A stretch of DNA of 64,000 nt. Source: a virus. The notes beneath the pieces are model-generated. The model was not told the DNA's origin. It did not search any database and worked only from the letters and a program-made list of their open reading frames with translations. The translations under genes and the position numbers were made by a program. This document shows positions 3 to 12,023 of this stretch, piece by piece (positions within the stretch are counted from its first letter, which is position 1; every line of letters begins with the position of its first letter). The DNA is taken from positions 62,001 to 126,000 of the IMG/VR virus record IMGVR_UViG_3300047562_003246; one strand, given 5' to 3'.

Positions 3-950
3 GCCGTCACGCAGGCTACGCTAAATTCCAAGCACAATTCGAATGTTTCGATGCGAGATATCGAAGCCCTTGATGATGAAAATAGATTTACTCTAAAAGG
101 CTTTGAGCTTATCGACAGAGTCATCAATCCGTCTGGTGAGCAAAGAGGTTTTGCAGTTCATGCTGAGTCCGATGGACGGGTTGGTTTAATTAGACCTGCT
201 CCTCAGGGCGGGCATTATGTCATGATCGGGCTTAAACAGCATTACGTGTTACCAGGGTTTAAGATCAACGTAAAGCCTGGAGAAGAAGTTGAAGCCGGTC
301 AGCAATTAACTGAAGGAATACCTAATCACGCTGCCGTCACAAAACTTCGAGGTATCGGTGAAGGTCGCCGCGCAGTTGTTGAAGCTATGACTAGGGCTCT
401 TAAGGAAAACGGACAAAAAGGTTACCGCAGAAATCTGGAGATTCTCGCCAGAGGGTTAGTCGATCGTGTGCGTATGACCGACGAGTATGGCGATTTTATT
501 CCAGATGATGTTGTTCCGTACCATAGACTTGAAGCGACCTGGAAACCGCGAGAAGACAGTTACGAGCTACAAACAGATCGTGCGATCGGAAAGTTCCTCG
601 AAAAGCCTGTGCTACACTATAGCATCGGAACACCTATCAAACCTTCGATGGTGAAAACTTTACAAAAGCACGGGATTAAAAGCCTAGTAGTTAACGAAGC
701 AGCTCCTCCGTTTGAACCCACCGTCGTTAGGGCTGTGGATTTAATGCAAACCGACCCCGACTGGATGACAAGGCAGTTGGGCGGTCACGGACGTAGAAGC
801 TTCGAAGAAGCTGTCATGCGAGGTCGAGATAGCGATACTTCTGGGACTAGTTACGTTGGTTCTCGTGCAGAATTAGTTTCATTCAATCGTGGCAACTCGA
901 CAGTAAAACTCGATGAACCAGCCCCAGGCACACCAATATTACCGAGATAG
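3..950 (+). CDS. RNA polymerase beta'-like C-terminal protein (5' partial)
   Basis: The frame is open from the first bases of the window, so the N-terminus is missing; the ATG at 51 is probably internal. The readable part resembles the C-terminal region of a multisubunit RNA polymerase beta' subunit. 'TQATLNSKHN' just before position 51 recalls the beta' 'TQLTLRTFH' segment, 'KPGEEVEAGQQLTEG' recalls its 'GD.V.aG..LT.G' hairpin, and 'LVDRVRMTDEYGDFIP' recalls its 'vRkVrVtdpGDtdflpG' stretch. The catalytic NADFDGD motif would lie upstream of the window and cannot be checked. The last 60 residues are polar and unlike beta'. It overlaps the next gene by 38 bases. It could be part of a phage RNA polymerase or a virion protein derived from one. 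The family resemblance was judged by eye. Confidence 0.5.
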   Translation, partial: AVTQATLNSKHNSNVSMRDIEALDDENRFTLKGFELIDRVINPSGEQRGFAVHAESDGRVGLIRPAPQGGHYVMIGLKQHYVLPGFKINVKPGEEVEAGQQLTEGIPNHAAVTKLRGIGEGRRAVVEAMTRALKENGQKGYRRNLEILARGLVDRVRMTDEYGDFIPDDVVPYHRLEATWKPREDSYELQTDRAIGKFLEKPVLHYSIGTPIKPSMVKTLQKHGIKSLVVNEAAPPFEPTVVRAVDLMQTDPDWMTRQLGGHGRRSFEEAVMRGRDSDTSGTSYVGSRAELVSFNRGNSTVKLDEPAPGTPILPR

Positions 951-3201
951 CACTTCGTTGCCTCCAAGTCGATCGGTAGCGCTTGCCAGATTTAATACTG
1001 ACAAGCATTACTTTACCGACCAGCAAATTCGCCGACAGCAAGCTATTGCTTTACAGCCTGCGATGCAGCAAGCAGCAATGCAGGCTCAGCAAAATTTAGC
1101 TGACCCTACGTCGCAGCAGCAAGGTAAATCTCAAAAGCCAAAACAGCAAACGGCTGAATCTCAATTCAAAAATGTTCCAAAGGTGCCGCAAGCTTTGAAG
1201 CCGCCCACGGTCCCAGGTCAAGGTTCTGTTCCTGGAGGCTCTTTAGGTTTACTACCTAAAAACGCTACTGGTAGTTTTTTAGGAGATTACGGGCACTACA
1301 TCAATAAGTTCTACAATCCATGGAGTGAGGCATGGAAAGAAGAGTCTAATGATGGAATTGAGACAGGGCTTAAATATACGGGCCGGGGTGCTATGGCAGT
1401 GGGTACAACTGCTGCGGCACTTGCTGGCGGTTTAGGTCTCGCAGGTATCGGAACAACAACTGCCATCGGTGGCACTGGTGGAGCAGCCGGAACAGGTACA
1501 GGTTTACTCGGAGGAACACTTGGTATGGGTCGCGGATTTTCAACTCTTGGCAATTTATTTAGTCGCGGCTCTAATTTCATAAGAGGATTTGGTGGCAACG
1601 CTACTAAAGCAGCCAAACCTCCAGGGGCTACCGGAGGTGCTTGGGATACAGCTGGTAAAGTTTGGAATTGGGCAGACCGAGCCATGACGGCTGACTATCT
1701 AGGCTCACTTGTTACTGGCAGTAGTCCGATCGAAAGCGGGCTTAGCATGTTTGGTTTTGGCTCGGGTTCTAATCAAGCAGGCGGTGTAGGTCCTTCCGGT
1801 CCTGCTGATCCTTACAGTCAGTACGATAACACTCCGAATCCTTCGAGTATGTGGAATCAAAGTGGTTACGGTCCACCACCTGCGTACGGAAGGTATAATC
1901 CCGATAACTGGTCAAACTTACCTTCTAACCGTTTTTCGTCTGCGTTACCAACAAAAACTGCGAGCGTTGTTATGCAAAATATTCCTGTAATTCTTCCTGT
2001 GACGCAGAAGATTGCTTCGGAGCTACGTGCTGAAGTTATTTCGCCGATGCCGATTCTTTTTTTACTCGATAAAGAAGCAGCAAGGTTAAGAGGAACCGGT
2101 AGATCTGGCAGACGCGGAAGAGGGGCGAACCCTAATAACAATCGTGGTGTAGGTAATACACTCAGGGCTCCTGCGGCTCCAGCTGTAAGCGCGAGTCCAA
2201 GTACTTATCTCACTGATTCACAGTTGTTGCCCAGGGGTTATTCCTTTGGACAATCCCGACTAACTAGATCTGGTGCAAGTTCTAAAACCGTACCAAGAGA
2301 TATGGTAGATTTGGATAACGTTGATCCAAACGACATACACACTCCTGCTTTTACGTCGTCAACATTGACTTCTGGAGGTTCAAGAACTCCTGGTTCAGGA
2401 CAATCTACGGCGTCTCCGCCAGGTACTAGAAGTGGACAAGGAACTAGCACTGGTGGCGGTCAAAGTACTGGTGGCGGTGGCGGTGGTCAAAGTACTGGTG
2501 GCGGTGGCGGTGGTCAAAGTACTGGTGGCGGTGGCGGCGGTCAAAGCACTGGTGGTGGCAGTCAAAGCACTGGTGGTGGCAGTCAAAGCACTGGTGGTGG
2601 CAGTCAAAGCACTGGTGGTGGCAGTCAAAGCACTGGTGGTGGCAGTCAAAGCACTGGTGGCAGCGGTAACCAAGGTAGTCGCAATACTAGAAATAATTCG
2701 CCTACACCTATACCAGCGGATCCTGCGATGGACCGAGCAAAAATGCTCGGAGGTATTGGGGCTGGTGCAGTAGGCGGTGCGTTACTTAGCTCATATTTCG
2801 GCGGCGGTGGCGATGCTTATGATGAGAATATTCAGGTAGCTGGACCCGATGGTAGACCTGTGCCGATTTCTTATTACACAAAGAGCACAGGGTCAGTGTT
2901 CTCTCCTTCGTCCTGGGGAAAGACACAATACGAAAAGGATAAAGAAGTTATGGATGCAGCCAGAAGATTAGGCTGGGTTCCACCTACTCAATATGGACAG
3001 CAAGGTGAATATTACGGTGGCGGCAGCTTCGGTGGCGGTACTAGACTTCCGACCAGTCTTTACAGTATGACTCGCTGGCCAGATCCTCGACATTATCGTG
3101 ATATGGTTTTGAATAATCGAGGCGGTGTACAACCGATTCAACAGCCTCAACCAATCGCACAACCCGCGAACACTGCAGGATTTCAAAATACACTGATATG
3201 A
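913..3201 (+). CDS. Large Gly/Ser/Gln-rich virion-type protein with tandem repeats
   Basis: A 762-residue protein starting inside the previous gene and ending in an ATGA overlap with the next. The N-terminal 100 residues are Gln/Ala-rich. Residues about 155-225 form a long Gly/Ala/Thr stretch with hydrophobic, glycine-zipper character. Residues 517-583 are tandem QSTGGG-type repeats. A second Gly/Ala hydrophobic stretch lies near residue 620, and the C-terminus is Gly/Tyr/Pro-rich. No catalytic motif is visible. Low complexity, size and operon position suggest a virion or internal head protein, but I do not recognise the family. The minus-strand frames opposite the repeats are composition shadows. 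Confidence 0.8.
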   Translation: MNQPQAHQYYRDSTSLPPSRSVALARFNTDKHYFTDQQIRRQQAIALQPAMQQAAMQAQQNLADPTSQQQGKSQKPKQQTAESQFKNVPKVPQALKPPTVPGQGSVPGGSLGLLPKNATGSFLGDYGHYINKFYNPWSEAWKEESNDGIETGLKYTGRGAMAVGTTAAALAGGLGLAGIGTTTAIGGTGGAAGTGTGLLGGTLGMGRGFSTLGNLFSRGSNFIRGFGGNATKAAKPPGATGGAWDTAGKVWNWADRAMTADYLGSLVTGSSPIESGLSMFGFGSGSNQAGGVGPSGPADPYSQYDNTPNPSSMWNQSGYGPPPAYGRYNPDNWSNLPSNRFSSALPTKTASVVMQNIPVILPVTQKIASELRAEVISPMPILFLLDKEAARLRGTGRSGRRGRGANPNNNRGVGNTLRAPAAPAVSASPSTYLTDSQLLPRGYSFGQSRLTRSGASSKTVPRDMVDLDNVDPNDIHTPAFTSSTLTSGGSRTPGSGQSTASPPGTRSGQGTSTGGGQSTGGGGGGQSTGGGGGGQSTGGGGGGQSTGGGSQSTGGGSQSTGGGSQSTGGGSQSTGGGSQSTGGSGNQGSRNTRNNSPTPIPADPAMDRAKMLGGIGAGAVGGALLSSYFGGGGDAYDENIQVAGPDGRPVPISYYTKSTGSVFSPSSWGKTQYEKDKEVMDAARRLGWVPPTQYGQQGEYYGGGSFGGGTRLPTSLYSMTRWPDPRHYRDMVLNNRGGVQPIQQPQPIAQPANTAGFQNTLI
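2461..2663 (+). repeat. In-frame tandem repeat encoding QSTGGG units
   Basis: Three 27-base units (2461-2541, encoding QST followed by six Gly) are followed by five 21-base units at 2542, 2563, 2584, 2605 and 2626 (encoding QSTGGGS), then a partial unit at 2647. All lengths are multiples of three, so copy-number change would keep the reading frame. The 21-base units are nearly identical, which points to recent slippage or selection for a flexible linker. Confidence 0.95.
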
Positions 3202-6120: not shown

Positions 6121-6165
6121 GATTTTGGTTTGAAAAAATGTTTCCTGTTTGTTAAAGGAATGAAG

Positions 6166-6573
6166 ATGGATTTGCTGAATTTTCTGATCCGCTTTGGGCA
6201 ACAAAGCATGGACAGCCTGAAAGAAATCATCGCGCTGATTGAAAAGATCACAAAGAGCGAAGATTTGGAAGAGCAGGTCAAGCTCGTACTTGAGATGCTC
6301 AAGATTGCTGTCGAGCTTACACCGACCGAAATGGATGACAACATTGTTGATCTGATCAGCAAGCTGACGGATTCGCCGCTGTTTGACATTCTGCTTCGCA
6401 TGATTAAGCGAAATGACCCGGCTACTTCTGTTGCCTACTTGACGACCGCACAAGTGCAAGAAATCGAAACAGTTCAAATGCAAGGAATTAACTTCCTGCA
6501 GCTTGTTTCGCTTGCTAATCTTGTGATGCAAATTTTGAAGACGATCAAGAAGTCACGACAAGCGACTCTGTAA
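6166..6573 (+). CDS. Helical protein of unknown function (135 aa)
   Basis: The start at 6166 is chosen because AAAGGA lies 6 bases upstream; a TTG at 6130 and an ATG at 6160 are in frame but badly placed. The protein is almost wholly helical, with amphipathic Leu/Ile/Lys/Glu heptad-like segments and a more hydrophobic C-terminal helix ending 'LVMQILKTIKKSRQATL'. It stands alone between two terminators, so it may be transcribed separately. A long open frame on the opposite strand is a shadow of its codon usage. Function unknown. Confidence 0.7.
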   Translation: MDLLNFLIRFGQQSMDSLKEIIALIEKITKSEDLEEQVKLVLEMLKIAVELTPTEMDDNIVDLISKLTDSPLFDILLRMIKRNDPATSVAYLTTAQVQEIETVQMQGINFLQLVSLANLVMQILKTIKKSRQATL

Positions 6574-6655: not shown

Positions 6656-7738
6656 ATGTACACTTTGCCATCAGATCTACCGGAAGATATTTGTTATATC
6701 CCTCCGGTTATCGTGCATCCTTTTGTTTTTACGGAACTTGAAAGCGTTCCTTGGCACATCGCTGACAGAAAGCTACAAACTTTCTGGCCCATTAGTGATG
6801 GCGGTAAGGATGTTAAAGTCGGCGTGATTGACACCGGTATTGATGCTAATCATGCCGAAATCAAACATGCTTTTGAAAAAGCTGTAGACTTTACCGGTAG
6901 CAGTCGCGGAGCCCGAGACGTACAAGGTCACGGCACTCACGTTGCTAGCAGCATTGTCGGCAAGCAAGTCGGTGGTGCGCCTAACGCTAGGCTTTATGTC
7001 TATAAGGCACTTGGCGATGAGGGCTGGGGCCAAAGCAACTGGATCGCTCAAGCTGTGCTGGCAGCGATTGCCGATGGCGTTGATATTATCAACATGTCTT
7101 TAGGCTCCGATTCGCCTTCTTCCACGATTTACAATGCGCTCAAGAAAGCACACGCAGCTGGGATAATCATCTTTGCCGCGACTGGTAACAACTCTAGTCG
7201 ACGCAATAGTTATCCAGCAGACTTCAACGACGTATGTATGGCGGTAGCTGCAATTGACCGCAATAAGAACCGAGCTTCTTTTTCAAACGCCGGTCAAGGT
7301 ACTGATATCTCTGATTACGGTGTACAAGTCATCGGTGCGCGGGCTGGCGGCGGACTTATCGCTATGTCAGGCACTAGCATGGCTACGCCAGTCTGTGCCA
7401 GCATGGCAGCTAATCGCATTTCGTTCCAGAAGAAGTACGGATTGCCGACGTTGAAAGTCAATGATTGGTATGCCGAGTTTCAGACTTTTTGTGATGATCT
7501 AGGCTCAAGAGGTAATGATCCGTTTTACGGAGCTGGTCAGATCAATCCAGAGAAGGCTTTCGGCGTTGCTCCAAAGAAACCCAAGCCGGATCCTGAGCCA
7601 GAACCGAAACCAGATCCCAAGCCGGATCCTGAACCGGGACCAACTCCTGCGTTCGAGCAGATTGGACGAATTATTAAACGTGATTCCGATGGGGCCATCT
7701 TCGTAGCAAACAACAACGGACTCACTGTTGCTCTATAA
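6656..7738 (+). CDS. Subtilisin-like serine protease (peptidase S8)
   Basis: A 360-residue subtilase. The catalytic triad is visible: Asp59 in 'VGVIDTGID', His92 in 'GHGTHVASS' and Ser241 in 'SGTSMATP'. The oxyanion-hole Asn178 lies in 'AATGNNS'. The catalytic domain spans about residues 45-300. It is followed by a Pro/Lys/Asp/Glu-rich linker (307-331) and a short beta-like tail. No signal peptide or long inhibitory propeptide is visible, so it is made in the cytoplasm or released by lysis. The ribosome binding site is poor. It opens the accessory cassette and is flanked by terminators, so it is likely a separate transcription unit. Possible roles are processing of virion proteins or of host surface proteins; the separate prohead protease at 16068 makes a capsid-maturation role less necessary. 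Confidence 0.93.
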   Translation: MYTLPSDLPEDICYIPPVIVHPFVFTELESVPWHIADRKLQTFWPISDGGKDVKVGVIDTGIDANHAEIKHAFEKAVDFTGSSRGARDVQGHGTHVASSIVGKQVGGAPNARLYVYKALGDEGWGQSNWIAQAVLAAIADGVDIINMSLGSDSPSSTIYNALKKAHAAGIIIFAATGNNSSRRNSYPADFNDVCMAVAAIDRNKNRASFSNAGQGTDISDYGVQVIGARAGGGLIAMSGTSMATPVCASMAANRISFQKKYGLPTLKVNDWYAEFQTFCDDLGSRGNDPFYGAGQINPEKAFGVAPKKPKPDPEPEPKPDPKPDPEPGPTPAFEQIGRIIKRDSDGAIFVANNNGLTVAL

Positions 7739-7778: not shown

Positions 7779-7826
7779 ACCCGCTTTGGTACCTTGCCGC
7801 CTGTGGTATCCAAAGCGGGTTTTTTA
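7779..7826 (+). terminator. Rho-independent terminator after the subtilase gene
   Basis: ACCCGCTTTGG (7779-7789) pairs with CCAAAGCGGGT (7810-7820); the inner TACC/GGTA also pairs, with a small bulge. A T-tract runs to 7826. Positions 7739-7910 hold this terminator and the leader of the next gene. Confidence 0.88.
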
Positions 7827-7910: not shown

Positions 7911-9758
7911 ATGAAAATCACGTATTTACTTTTGTTGTGGTTATTTTTGGTATCGACAGCGATTGCTCAGGAAGATCTTGCAGCTCCTGTTGACGATAAA
8001 CCGAGAATCATAGGTCGACCTGATTTAGCTTTAAAGGTTACCGCTCAAAGTGCCAGGGACTTAACCAATGTTGATCCTGCGGCAGCTGCTAATTCTTTTT
8101 ATGTGTGGATTCGAGATCCACAAGATAAAGAGTTTGATGCCATTTATGATTTTGTGCTTAATACGGCTGTCAGTCATGCGGCTGTTTTACTTAAGGCCGA
8201 TCGCATACGTAGCGAGCCAGCAGGTATTATTCTGCGATTAGATCTAAGGCAGTGGATACCCGACGAGAAGCTTCGAGCCAATTTTCGCAAGATCATTAAC
8301 GAAGAGTATTTTGATCCTGCGTTTTATGTGAAAGGCAAAGAGACAATCGGTGCCGCCGCAGAAGTTGCGTTTACTCCGACAAACTTTGACTACATTCAGA
8401 AGCTTTTCGGCGAGCAACATCCAAATTTAATATTCAAGAACGTTATTACGGACTCTACAGAAAATGACTTCAATCGAATTAAAGTAGCAACAGAGCCTTA
8501 CGTAAAAAACGGTACGTTATATCAGGCCGCTTATGTTGTTAATGAGGTTGTCGACTCGCCGGTAACTAACGGTGTGATCTTCGGCCCGGCCCTTCAAGAT
8601 CTGTGTTCACAAGATATACAGGATTTGACAACTATCAGCGGAATGACCATACCGATCGTGGAAGCTGAAAGGTTTATGGTTTTTGCGCTTAGAACACTTG
8701 AAGGCGGTCTTTATTACAAACTTCAAGGACTAATAGATGCCGAAGGTAAAAGACTATCTCAGGAAGAGTGGCTTAAAACTTTCGGTGCTGAAGAAAACGT
8801 TAGTGATGACCTGGGTGGACGCGAATTTGTCGGCATGTGGCACAGCGGTGTTACGAGCAAGCCTAGAAAGATTTCTTTCTTCTACGGTAGAAACCTGCGA
8901 CCATCGTCAGGTCTGCCGTTAGTTGTAGTTACGCAAGATAATTTGGACGAAACAGACGATACGGCGGTGCATCCGATGTACTCCCTATTAGATGTTAAGT
9001 TCGATGCGGCAGAAATTTTGGCGACAAAGCCGAATGGGATGATCGCTTATGGTCTCTTTGACGGTAACGGAGTTTTACAAGACCAAGCACCTGACAATCT
9101 GGTAAGAGATCACACTGTGCCTAGTCCGTTTACAAGCAGATTAGAGTGCGCGATTTCATGTATCAGATGTCATGGTCCGCATGACCAATGGATTCCAGTT
9201 AAAAATCACGTTAAGACATTGTTGTCGAACCTTGATAAGCAGGGACAAAAACTAACTGTCGTAGGTGATCTTACTGAGGACCTAGATATTGCCGAGCTAC
9301 AAGTTAGACTTGCGCACCTTTACAACGGCGATATCGACAGCGCATTGCAATTAGCAAGAGATCAATTTGAAAAAGCTTGCGCTAAAATGAGTCCGCTTGT
9401 TAGGCAAGAAGCTGATTACGCAAAGTGGACCGTACAAGTTCTTTCAGAGCGTTTTGAGAAATACCGGTATACTTGGATAGATCCTCAAGAAGCTCTAAGG
9501 ACGCTTGGCGTGGTAGTTTCTCAAGATCAAGCCAATGACTTATTTGCTCAGGTTGTTCCTGGCGTGGCAAAAAATAACGGACCAGCGTTGTTTGATATTG
9601 CTCTATTCACATTACGTTCACATGCGACTGATAGAGAGCTTGTTATCAGTCGGGAAGACTGGGAAAGAATTTATCAAGCTACTCTGGCGTATGCTATACA
9701 AAATGGATCGTTTCCTTTACCTGAAGAGGTTAAACCAAATGCAGAAGCTAACCAGTAA
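7911..9758 (+). CDS. Exported mono-haem c-type cytochrome-like protein
   Basis: The start at 7911 is preferred over the in-frame ATG at 7863 because it gives a clean signal peptide: 'MKITYLLLLWLFLVSTAIA' then Gln, with cleavage after AIA. The mature protein of about 595 residues carries one covalent-haem site, CIRCH (Cys417, Cys420, His421), in the context 'CAISCIRCHGPHDQW'. Haem attachment occurs outside the cytoplasmic membrane and needs a host cytochrome maturation system. The general layout recalls exported cytochrome-domain proteins of planctomycetes (judged by eye). No distal Met ligand is obvious. It overlaps the next gene, a second cytochrome, by 20 bases, so the two are probably co-translated. 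Finding this between phage structural genes is unusual. Confidence 0.8.
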   Translation: MKITYLLLLWLFLVSTAIAQEDLAAPVDDKPRIIGRPDLALKVTAQSARDLTNVDPAAAANSFYVWIRDPQDKEFDAIYDFVLNTAVSHAAVLLKADRIRSEPAGIILRLDLRQWIPDEKLRANFRKIINEEYFDPAFYVKGKETIGAAAEVAFTPTNFDYIQKLFGEQHPNLIFKNVITDSTENDFNRIKVATEPYVKNGTLYQAAYVVNEVVDSPVTNGVIFGPALQDLCSQDIQDLTTISGMTIPIVEAERFMVFALRTLEGGLYYKLQGLIDAEGKRLSQEEWLKTFGAEENVSDDLGGREFVGMWHSGVTSKPRKISFFYGRNLRPSSGLPLVVVTQDNLDETDDTAVHPMYSLLDVKFDAAEILATKPNGMIAYGLFDGNGVLQDQAPDNLVRDHTVPSPFTSRLECAISCIRCHGPHDQWIPVKNHVKTLLSNLDKQGQKLTVVGDLTEDLDIAELQVRLAHLYNGDIDSALQLARDQFEKACAKMSPLVRQEADYAKWTVQVLSERFEKYRYTWIDPQEALRTLGVVVSQDQANDLFAQVVPGVAKNNGPALFDIALFTLRSHATDRELVISREDWERIYQATLAYAIQNGSFPLPEEVKPNAEANQ

Positions 9759-10845
9759 GCTACTTGTCGTAGCTTCAATTTTCGCTGTTGGATTGTCTTG
9801 CCTGCAAGTTGCAAAGGCTGGTGATCCATTTTTTCGCAGTCGAGCAGTCGTATTAGGGCACGGACACTGCGTGACTCCAGTTCAGAGCTTTCATCAGCCG
9901 GTCTTTAATTATTCTTCGCCGGTTGTTGTGAAGTCTCATGTTGTAGACTCGCACGTTGTCAGTTCTCACGTCGCTCATCCTGTTCATCATGTCGATAAGA
10001 CTGATGATGTAACTGCAGCGCTCAAAGTCATCACTGACTTCAAGCTCAAACAACAAGCACTCGATCAAGGTCTGAACGCACTAGGCTACACACCTAGTCA
10101 AGCTGCACAGCAGTACGCTCAACCGCAATATGCTCAGCCGCAGCAAGTTTACGGCGGCAATATTAATTACGGTTTGGCTCCTTACGCACAAGGTGCTACT
10201 CAGTATCAGGTTGAATCACTACAGCTGTCGTCGTTTACTGATAATGTTGACGGGGTGAAAGAGCATATCAACTCGCTAATGCGTTTAGCCGAGAATATGC
10301 AAAAGAATAGCCTGACCGTCGGTACTTCTGTACAGTCGACGGTGCAAACACTTGCTGACAGTGCAAGTAAGCAAGCGGAGTCTCAAGTAGAAGTCGCTCG
10401 CATTACTTCTGAAGCCGCAGCTAGGGTTGCTATGATCCAAGCGGCTGCTCAACTTGTTAGCGAAAGCAAACTGAATTCCAAGATTGATCTGAATATCGAA
10501 AGATCTTCTGGTGGTCAGACCGGTGAAGGTACTGTCGGCGAGCCCATCGTAGTCGAGTCCGTAGAGCAAGAAGTTCAAACGCAAGAAATGCCTCAAGCAG
10601 CTATTCCAGCTGGTCTCGACCAAATGACAGCCGTCAAGCTTGTGACCGAGTCTTGCGGAGCTTGCCATATGGGCGGAAAGACGAAAGGTAACTTTTCAAT
10701 GTTAGAGGGACAGATGTCCCAAGCTGATATTGATACTTCGATTGCTGAAGTATTTACCGGTGAAATGCCGAAGCAAGCAAAACTGACCACCGCAGAGCGG
10801 CTGCAGATGGCAGAAGCAATTAAACTTTTTGGCGCTGCTAAATAA
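9739..10845 (+). CDS. Exported cytochrome c with C-terminal haem domain
   Basis: The start at 9739 overlaps the previous gene's end and gives a signal peptide: a basic start, a hydrophobic core, then cleavage near 'QVAKA-GDP' (residue 27). Residues 60-85 are Val/His/Ser-rich ('SHVVDSHVVSSHVAH'). Residues 165-255 are helical and possibly coiled coil. Residues 295-368 form a small class-I-like cytochrome c domain with Cys306-Gly-Ala-Cys309-His310 and a likely distal ligand Met343 in 'GEMP'. The product should be periplasmic or extracellular. The ATG of the next gene lies two bases after the stop. With the upstream cytochrome it forms a pair, perhaps part of an envelope or virion-surface complex. 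Redox function is inferred from the motif only. Confidence 0.85.
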   Translation: MQKLTSKLLVVASIFAVGLSCLQVAKAGDPFFRSRAVVLGHGHCVTPVQSFHQPVFNYSSPVVVKSHVVDSHVVSSHVAHPVHHVDKTDDVTAALKVITDFKLKQQALDQGLNALGYTPSQAAQQYAQPQYAQPQQVYGGNINYGLAPYAQGATQYQVESLQLSSFTDNVDGVKEHINSLMRLAENMQKNSLTVGTSVQSTVQTLADSASKQAESQVEVARITSEAAARVAMIQAAAQLVSESKLNSKIDLNIERSSGGQTGEGTVGEPIVVESVEQEVQTQEMPQAAIPAGLDQMTAVKLVTESCGACHMGGKTKGNFSMLEGQMSQADIDTSIAEVFTGEMPKQAKLTTAERLQMAEAIKLFGAAK

Positions 10846-10847
10846 GC

Positions 10848-11408
10848 ATGAACGCTTTACTGGCTTTATTCAAACTAATTGTTGCGGTGCTGGATTTATT
10901 TGCGCCTCCTCCGGTGAAACCAGATCCAGCGCCTCCTGAAGACAATCCTGACCCTAAACCTCCGGCTCCACCTACGCCTCCTGCTCATCCACTACCAAGT
11001 CCTCTTCCTCCTTCTGTTATTGAGCTACAGACATCTTTGCTTGTCGCTCACAATAGAATGCGAAAAGAAGCCGGTATTAACTCAATGCTTTTGCATAATG
11101 TTGAACTTGCAGCATTAGCACAAAAACAAGCTGAGTATCAGGCTTCCATAGAAGGCTGGAGAAATTTGCATGCAAGGCCAAACGGTGGTAGTCTGACAAA
11201 AGATTTAAAAACTTTATCGTTTGCGATTAGCGGCGGTGGAGAAAATGCAGCAGCTGGATATAATCGGGTTGCTGATGTAATGCAGGGATGGAAAAATAGT
11301 CGAGGTCACTACCAAAATATTATTCGTAGAAATTACACTCTTGTAGGTTTTGGATTTGCCAAAAGTAAAAAGGGTGTTGCCTACTGGGTAGCCATCTTTG
11401 TAGACTAG
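10848..11408 (+). CDS. CAP-domain (SCP/YkwD-like) protein
   Basis: 186 residues. A short hydrophobic N-terminus (residues 1-19) could be a signal anchor. It is followed by a Pro-rich linker (20-56) and a CAP domain (about 57-186). CAP hallmarks are 'LLVAHNRMRKEAG', 'NLHARPNG' (His108), 'GGGENAAAGY' (Glu132), 'SRGHYQNII' (His154) and the final 'VGFGFAKSKKGVAYWVAIF'. In bacteria such proteins are usually secreted or surface-bound. It lies two bases after the cytochrome stop, so it belongs to the same operon. The biochemical role of bacterial CAP proteins is poorly defined, and I infer only an extracellular location. Confidence 0.88.
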   Translation: MNALLALFKLIVAVLDLFAPPPVKPDPAPPEDNPDPKPPAPPTPPAHPLPSPLPPSVIELQTSLLVAHNRMRKEAGINSMLLHNVELAALAQKQAEYQASIEGWRNLHARPNGGSLTKDLKTLSFAISGGGENAAAGYNRVADVMQGWKNSRGHYQNIIRRNYTLVGFGFAKSKKGVAYWVAIFVD

Positions 11409-11456
11409 ATGTATCAGACCTTTAGTTTCGTTATTCGCAATTCCAAGGAGAATAAA

Positions 11457-11948
11457 ATGCGAAGTATCTCAAGTCTCGGGTTGGCCTGCGTGGCCATGAT
11501 CGCAGTGTTTGTTTGCGCGCTTACAGCAAATGTTGCACACGCCGGTAATGGATCAGTTGTCGCAGACGTTCAGCTTCAGCCTTGTGTTGGTCCTAACTGC
11601 AATGCAAGTTTGAGTCAAGTTATTCAGCAACAAGCACAATTACAAAACGCTCAGCATCATTTTGTTTCGCATGGCGGCTTTGGCGCTGCAAACGTTGTTA
11701 AGCGACAAGTGGTTGTACAAGCTGTGCCTGTTCAGCAGCACGTTGTGCGTCAGCAATTTGTTGCGCCTCAGCGCGTTATCGTTCAGAATGTGCCTGTACA
11801 TCGCCAGCAAGTAATTGTGCAAAATGTACCGGTACATCAGCAGCGAGTATTAGTACAGTCGCACGGCTTCGGCGTTCAAGCCAACAATGTTCGTGTTCGC
11901 AGCGTTGAACGTGTTCGTGTTTCGAGGTTCCCTCGATTGTTCAGGTAA
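11457..11948 (+). CDS. Exported Val/Gln/His-rich protein
   Basis: The start at 11457 is chosen for its strong AAGGAG ribosome binding site 6 bases upstream and its signal peptide 'MRSISSLGLACVAMIAVF' with cleavage near 'NVAHA-GNG'. The mature part is low complexity. Repeated units such as 'VIVQNVPVH' appear twice, and 'VVVQAVPVQQH' and 'RVLVQSHGF' are similar. The C-terminus is Arg/Val-rich. It is the last gene of the exported cassette and is followed at once by a terminator. Val/Gln/His-rich exported proteins of this style are familiar from planctomycete genomes; the exact function is unknown. Confidence 0.8.
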   Translation: MRSISSLGLACVAMIAVFVCALTANVAHAGNGSVVADVQLQPCVGPNCNASLSQVIQQQAQLQNAQHHFVSHGGFGAANVVKRQVVVQAVPVQQHVVRQQFVAPQRVIVQNVPVHRQQVIVQNVPVHQQRVLVQSHGFGVQANNVRVRSVERVRVSRFPRLFR

Positions 11949-11983: not shown

Positions 11984-12023
11984 AAAAAGGCTGGCTTGTT
12001 AATTCAAGTCAGCCTTTTTTTTT
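11984..12023 (+). terminator. Rho-independent terminator ending the exported-protein cassette
   Basis: AAAAAGGCTGGCTTG (11984-11998) pairs with CAAGTCAGCCTTTTT (12005-12019) with one mismatch, and the T-run extends to 12023. The next base begins a minus-orientation copy of the dispersed 14-mer. Confidence 0.9.

Follow-up and report, generated by a model that had tools for sequence, protein, structure and literature searches.

Two predicted exported c-type haem proteins encoded beside a variable protease gene in phages

Cytochromes in phages, where present, are usually borrowed host metabolic genes. Among bacterial two-haem enzymes, the di-haem cytochrome c peroxidases and MauG set a low-spin relay haem beside a catalytic haem, MauG's with a Tyr ligand. 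Here, we analyze a 64,000-nucleotide stretch of viral DNA (the window), bases 62,001-126,000 of the 185,237-base IMG/VR virus record IMGVR_UViG_3300047562_003246, in which two haem-protein genes (open reading frames ORF1 and ORF2), a CAP-domain gene and ORF4 form one tight unit with terminators on both sides; these genes, their motifs, their immediate neighbors and the terminators lie on the + strand. An earlier note on this DNA had read the unit as two signal-peptide CxxCH proteins, a CAP-domain protein and a V/Q/H-rich exported protein, and its coordinates and residues proved correct. We consider it likely that export, haem attachment, pairing of ORF1 with ORF2 and association with a protease all hold together, and we give a probability of roughly 0.4 to our preferred interpretation, in which the cassette is an envelope-attack or release module that works with the protease.

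Two haem proteins encoded as neighboring genes

ORF1 (7911-9758) encodes a 615-residue mono-haem protein with the predicted signal peptide MKITYLLLLWLFLVSTAIA and a large domain of a family common to Planctomycetota and Poribacteria. The family is recognized by the signature P-N-G-x-x-x-Y-x-L-x-D-G-x-G, found in ORF1 by pattern scans (9030-9071), followed by CxxCH, with homology over ~450 residues. Since the CxxCH pattern is no commoner in the DNA of the 185-kb genome than in a reversed control (19 occurrences versus 23), conservation must carry the case for the haem sites. It does so for ORF1, whose haem-attachment motif CIRCH (Cys417-Cys420-His421; 9159-9173) is invariant in 64 of 64 aligned homologues. 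Asn84, Tyr268, Ser312, Asn375, Gly376 and Gly387 are equally invariant in these 64 sequences, and Arg319, Asp343 and Glu368, as well as Tyr64 and Tyr380, are nearly so. Beyond the CxxCH histidine, Tyr268 is the sole fully invariant residue that could bind haem; the alignment holds no conserved Met or second His as a ligand, and the ORF1 haem is therefore probably five-coordinate or Tyr-ligated, as a catalytic or sensing site. The ORF1 of one relative (G012; L104:5162-7003) starts with MNRRSFLITGAKALAITAPVA, a Tat-like leader, as opposed to the Sec-type leaders of the other ORF1s.

The ORF1 domain has no family in Pfam, NCBIfam or PHROGs, and the PDB gave no match to it by sequence or by sequence-profile. 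AlphaFold2 modeled the window ORF1 with a mean predicted local distance difference test (pLDDT) score of 74.7 and a cellular core domain of the family with a pLDDT of 93.5 and a predicted template modeling (pTM) score of 0.89. Searched with Foldseek against the PDB, neither model found a match at E<=0.001 (best for the core model, E=0.94), and the Foldseek viral library yielded no credible match to the ORF1 model.

ORF2 (9739-10845; 368 residues) is also predicted to be exported and combines a Q/V/A-rich and helical N-terminal part with a C-terminal class I cytochrome c domain. Its ATG at 9739 is preceded by GAAGAGG and lies within ORF1, giving a 20-nt overlap. The haem-attachment motif CGACH (Cys306-Cys309-His310; 10654-10668) and Met343-Pro344 (10765-10770), the predicted distal haem ligand, are invariant in the family alignment A5, where they appear as C312, C315, H316, M349 and P350 (TTG numbering); a CxxCH with a downstream Met in a ~70-residue domain is the layout of class I c-type cytochromes. 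All 15 tabulated phage ORF2 homologues have the CxxCH, and 14 have the downstream Met-Pro. From these residues we infer a His/Met relay haem that would serve in electron transfer. Profile matches of ORF2 to cytochromes c-550, c6 and the bc1 cytochrome c are weak, the match of the window protein to Cytochrome_CBB3 (E=0.003) falls below the Pfam cut-off, and its score for PSCyt1 (PF07635) stays under the curated cut-off, which the relative in G013 exceeds (22.4 versus 22 bits); the window ORF2 was assigned by alignment with its relatives. The N-terminal parts of phage ORF2s are Q/P/V/A-rich, with 3-12% Tyr.

A comparison with cellular homologues bears on how the two proteins may work. Of 42 cellular homologues with a complete 5' end, 41 carry an extra N-terminal CxxCH...MPx haem domain, whereas none of nine phage or phage-like proteins has this domain fused to ORF1. 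Pfam assigns the cellular N-terminal domain to PSCyt1 (one cellular example, E=5.8e-7). A profile built from it matches 12 of the 15 phage ORF2s, 11 of which pass the HMMER inclusion threshold; ORFs of other types in the phage loci gave no match. Because domains that are fused in cells and encoded by neighboring genes in phages are the usual sign of a functional pairing, ORF1 and ORF2 probably work as a pair.

Recurrence of the cassette and origin of the family

A tblastn search located an ORF1 homologue in LR756511, a 595-kb uncultured phage record, where it is directly followed by an ORF2-like protein (CAQCH, RMPP) and then by a V-rich exported protein. A hand-made pattern for PNGxxxYxLxDGxG retrieved eight viral stretches, all with CxxCH ~40 residues downstream, and 55 genome stretches, 51 of them with CxxCH in place; these 51 come mainly from Planctomycetota and Poribacteria, with a few from Alphaproteobacteria and Myxococcota and one from an acidobacterium. 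A second pattern for the window subtype added seven viral contigs. In total, 17 ORF1 homologues were found in 16 other phage or phage-like contigs of about 18-595 kb. The resulting 18 phage-type ORF1s come from the window record, LR756511, 14 other viral contigs and an Omnitrophota-binned contig, one record giving two paralogues; the IMG/VR contigs L019 and L020 carry the same cassette and were counted once. ORF2 adjoins ORF1 in nearly all extended loci, as judged by profile matches and, for G013, G014, G011 and G010, by reading. The Omnitrophota-binned contig (L048/L097; JAGWKL010000028, 16.8 kb) has a phage-type cassette in which no ORF2 was seen, along with HNH and RNase H genes, and is probably a misbinned phage contig.

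The search of viral and planctomycete genomes that the earlier note had proposed thus recovered the block in those 16 contigs and ORF1-type homologues in bacteria, and its central claim, that a phage encodes exported c-type haem proteins, is upheld by the recurrence of the gene order in independent assemblies. Host DNA joined by misassembly, for which the occurrence of homologues in bacterial genomes might speak, is practically ruled out by the presence of the same block in LR756511 and 15 IMG/VR or metagenome-assembled contigs, by the separate phage clade described below and by a G/C content that is continuous across the genes.

In a tree of the family, the 18 phage-type and 46 cellular ORF1s lie on opposite sides of a branch with support of 100/99. 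Long branches meet at this split, so that its safe reading is one of depth and not of order; on this phylogeny, the phage ORF1s are not recent host captures and form a deep clade of their own. This bears on the possibility that ORF1 and ORF2 are auxiliary metabolic genes, cytochromes that join host respiration to supply energy during infection. The class I cytochrome c character of ORF2 would fit such a role. Close kinship to host metabolic genes, however, is contradicted by a single deep clade split from all cellular sequences, where scattered host captures would be expected; the partner genes are proteases and not oxidases or dehydrogenases, ORF1 lacks a known electron-transfer fold, and the cellular family is itself patchy in Planctomycetota, turning up in 2 of the 119 genomes that were sampled there (the centre genome being one), in a first look that scored few candidates. 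We consider this explanation improbable. Of the roles suggested in the earlier note, support of respiration is left without backing by the deep phage clade and by partners that are proteases and exported low-complexity proteins, while an action on the host envelope remains the likeliest guess. As the cellular relatives are mostly Planctomycetota and Poribacteria, Planctomycetota-like hosts are likely, despite the patchy distribution in that phylum.

The protease slot and a possible role at the host envelope

Upstream of ORF1, the window encodes a subtilisin-type serine protease (S8; 6656-7738; PF00082, E=5.7e-43) with intact GVIDTG, GHGTHVA and SGTSMATP motifs of the catalytic Asp/His/Ser triad, a proline/aspartate-rich linker, a short C-terminal tail and no evident signal peptide; no other S8 match occurs in the 185-kb record. 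A protease gene stands beside ORF1 in 15 of the 18 phage loci, and its class varies. Papain-like C1 enzymes occur in LR756511, G001, G002, G003, G005, G007, G010 and G011, M10 proteases in G004, G015 and G016, a sedolisin/S8-like enzyme in G008 and an M12-like HExxHxxGxxHE protein in G012, with the caveat that the M12 and some C1 assignments are weak in Pfam and depend on motifs or close homology. In G007, a C39-like exported peptidase directly precedes the second ORF1 copy; this copy is shorter (382 residues; L095:5194-6953) and lies on the same 187-kb viral contig. The M10 and S8 cassette proteases are single-copy in their records, and no record has more than one further C1 gene. Because a protease is the recurrent neighbor, we count the subtilase as part of the module; the four-gene unit of the earlier note is real, although its borders left out this functionally linked gene and took in a CAP gene that is not a conserved member. 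One phage group also conserves, upstream of the protease or ORF1, an exported protein of 230-290 residues (L019:7923-8657, L002:8791-9546, L097:9190-9879) with a Pro-rich linker, a C-terminal domain that looks like thioredoxin without its CxxC, and no Pfam match.

In cells, caspases (C14) are the gene family most often found near ORF1 homologues. Caspase genes occur at 8 of 50 cellular ORF1-type loci, in about five lineages; with 110 such genes measured per 184 Mb, the expectation is 0.18 loci, and counting five lineages gives a P of about 1e-6. A profile search of the genomes confirmed most of these genes, and nearly all start, by eye, with a signal-peptide-like sequence. The C14 caspase-like genes stand beside two-haem proteins in L037, L039, L046, L049, L051, L056, L060 and L080, as tandem pairs in Roseobacter-group genomes. 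Some cellular relatives carry internalin-like repeats. Two surveys of prokaryotic caspases and death domains report no cytochrome link.

The pairing of a protease with an ORF1-type protein, caspases in cells and six other types in phages, is the most general pattern in these data, and it could mean that ORF1 controls the adjacent protease, either by sensing redox state or a gas through its haem or as an inhibitor, with caspases in bacteria perhaps controlled likewise. The absence of a conserved sixth haem ligand is shared by sensors and catalytic haems and would agree with such a function. Control by direct contact is hard to imagine for unrelated protease folds, however, and one general redox chemistry would be required; regulation of the protease by ORF1 seems to us quite unlikely.

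The surroundings of the cassette in relatives are informative about timing. In G004, 3 nt separate the stop codon of the terminase gene from the start of the protease gene; in G011, the protease gene is downstream of a tail-collar fibre gene; in G012, a portal gene follows ~2.5 kb downstream of the cassette; and in G003, a head-tail adaptor gene is 7 kb away. This placement beside virion genes points to late expression. It would also suit virion components, that is, a tail- or surface-associated adhesin or enzyme that processes the host surface at entry, and the lack of an evident signal peptide in the subtilase is in keeping with that idea. ORF1, ORF2 and ORF4, by contrast, have clear Sec signal peptides, and haem attachment would be needed outside the cytoplasm, unlike the assembly of particles within it, so we regard a place in the virion as unlikely. 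Small proteins with transmembrane (TM) or coiled segments lie near the cassettes of G016 and G012. By eye, the G011 record has a holin-like ORF of 122 residues with two TM segments directly downstream of ORF2 (L102:8063-8431).

Our preferred reading, an attack on the envelope or a step in release, draws on this location, on an exchangeable, endolysin-like enzyme slot and on the lack of a recognized endolysin: no endolysin or holin was recognized among the larger ORFs of the 185-kb genome (outside the window, only ORFs of at least ~180 residues and the best 25 of 26 PHROG families were covered). We propose that ORF1 and ORF2 would join as halves of a single exported redox complex with two haems: ORF2 would bring the electron-transfer haem (His/Met), borne on its low-complexity/helical stalk, and ORF1 a second haem in a catalytic-type site. 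The phage would make both together with its virion genes; they would cross the inner membrane via Sec and receive their haems from host cytochrome c maturation. Outside the membrane, the haem pair, the phage protease (here, the subtilisin) and small exported proteins may then act on a protein-rich host envelope, most likely weakening it for release. The computations show the signals for export, the haem sites, the conservation of gene order, the split of domains by comparison with the cellular fusions, the recurring nearness of a protease and, for several relatives, a location among late genes; contact between ORF1 and ORF2, catalysis at the ORF1 haem, the envelope as target and release as purpose are the steps that we infer.

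Several observations weigh against this interpretation. The window ORF2 falls below both the Pfam cut-off and the cellular N-domain profile. A terminator divides the subtilase from ORF1. Signal peptides are not evident in the S8, C1 or M10 enzymes of the phages, which would thus depend on a holin or some other route; no holin-like gene is present in the window cassette. G006, G013 and G014 have no protease adjacent to ORF1, the nearest candidates being a C1 gene ~10 kb away in G006 and an M10 gene ~24 kb away in G013. The C1 cases in the LR756511-like clade are not independent, which makes protease adjacency partly one shared event. The absence of an endolysin is weakly tested, and the expression timing of the cassette is read from gene location.

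The last gene of the unit brings in a further explanation. ORF4 (11457-11948; AAGGAG precedes its ATG) encodes a small V/Q/H-rich protein predicted to be exported, and in most relatives, too, ORF2 is followed by exported low-complexity proteins of a similar kind. Their recurrence beside ORF2 would be expected if the cassette remodels the surface without serving release: the protease would trim, and the haem pair would oxidatively cross-link exported low-complexity proteins (ORF4 and the N-terminal part of ORF2) into a coat over the infected cell, which would shut out rivals or change attachment. The Q/P/V/A-rich, Tyr-containing N-terminal parts of ORF2 speak for this, as do the exported clan-CD caspases and the internalin-like repeats found with cellular relatives. 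The late, virion-gene location in G004, G011 and G012 suits release better than early exclusion, and the ORF4 of the window contains no tyrosine, so that dityrosine coupling, which we had considered as a general mechanism, was demoted. Surface remodeling is, in our judgment, possible but rather doubtful.

The remaining genes and borders of the unit add context. An intrinsic terminator between the protease gene and ORF1 (7779-7825; -24.6 kcal/mol, z -3.0) precedes the start of the haem-protein transcription unit, and a strong one followed by eight T forms its 3' border (11984-12019; -23.2 kcal/mol, z -7.9); folding thereby bears out both hairpins that had been said to bound the block. The CAP-domain protein (10848-11408; PF00188, E=6.5e-20) has a hydrophobic N-terminus. 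Of 16 records searched, only the window record (G000) and LR756511 have a CAP gene, in the latter ~270 kb from the cassette; the gene is a local addition and not conserved in the cassette. Upstream of the subtilase, a small helical protein of 147 residues (6130-6573) is the probable counterpart of a helical protein of 110-220 residues found beside the protease or ORF1 in most relatives, judging by its position and, by eye, a C-terminal G-(I/V)-(D/N)-F pattern, with no significant homology to back the match.

The record is that of a tailed phage, encoding a terminase large subunit, Baseplate_J and a collagen-type tail fibre, as well as a UvsX-like recombinase, a DnaB-like helicase, a primase and SbcC. 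The earlier note had placed the block within phage virion genes; the window does hold the terminase, Baseplate_J and fibre genes, but tens of kilobases downstream, and a setting by virion genes is found in the relatives G004, G011 and G012. The window also encodes a phage sigma factor (PHROG 351, E=2e-10), and a Sir2-family protein and acetyltransferase matches lie in the record outside it. No tRNAs were found in the window or in six large flanking pieces. At positions 2555-2653, within an ORF at 913-3201, five 21-base tandem repeats give repeated CxxCH-pattern matches on the opposite strand.

Significance and comparison with known systems

Taken at its widest, our analysis raises the tentative possibility that an ancient exported two-haem oxidoreductase of new fold is common to many large phages, whose hosts may be planctomycete-like, and that, with an interchangeable protease, it would breach or rebuild the envelope. 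As part of that joint reading, and with the same reserve, the family may derive from a bacterial system that pairs a haem protein with exported caspases, which, if true, would connect c-type cytochromes with caspases in prokaryotes. A conserved secreted haem pair owned by phages, and tied to a protease slot that takes unrelated enzyme classes, raises the question of how phages leave, or change the surface of, thick- or protein-walled hosts. It also invites questions about the role of the bacterial homologues beside exported caspases and about envelope redox chemistry as a phage strategy. The cytochrome-caspase neighborhood in prokaryotes merits separate study.

Searches of the literature on phage and planctomycete cytochromes, on planctomycete phage lysis and on caspase-cytochrome links turned up no such cassette, and each of the nearest systems shares one aspect of it. 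PSCyt1 and other class I cytochromes c of Planctomycetota have the CxxCH...MP(P)...L(S/T)xxE layout of the ORF2 C-terminal domain; ORF2, however, is a separate gene with an exported low-complexity/helical stalk and is not linked to PSCyt2/PSD1. The uncharacterized cellular two-haem fusions (Rhodopirellula sallentina, L030; Pseudooceanicola, L039) have a homologous large domain with PNGxxxYxLxDGxG and CxxCH, and a subset has exported caspases nearby, whereas phages have two separate genes, a clade apart from the cellular one and other protease classes. Bacterial di-haem cytochrome c peroxidases and MauG resemble it in the idea of a relay haem beside a catalytic one; each phage chain, by contrast, has a single CxxCH, and ORF1 matches no solved structure by sequence or Foldseek. 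Auxiliary metabolic cytochromes are likewise phage-encoded c-type haem proteins, but here an exported pair sits in a protease cassette, belongs to a deep phage clade and has no respiratory partner gene. Phage lysis cassettes, with a holin and an exchangeable endolysin, offer the likeness of a late position by terminase or tail-fibre genes and an enzyme slot filled by unrelated classes; they differ in that the enzymes here are general proteases and not peptidoglycan hydrolases, the haem proteins are exported and the window block has no holin. ORF2, the proteases and the CAP protein are of known kinds, whereas the ORF1 domain fits neither a family nor a PDB fold, and our searches met no earlier account of the cassette itself.

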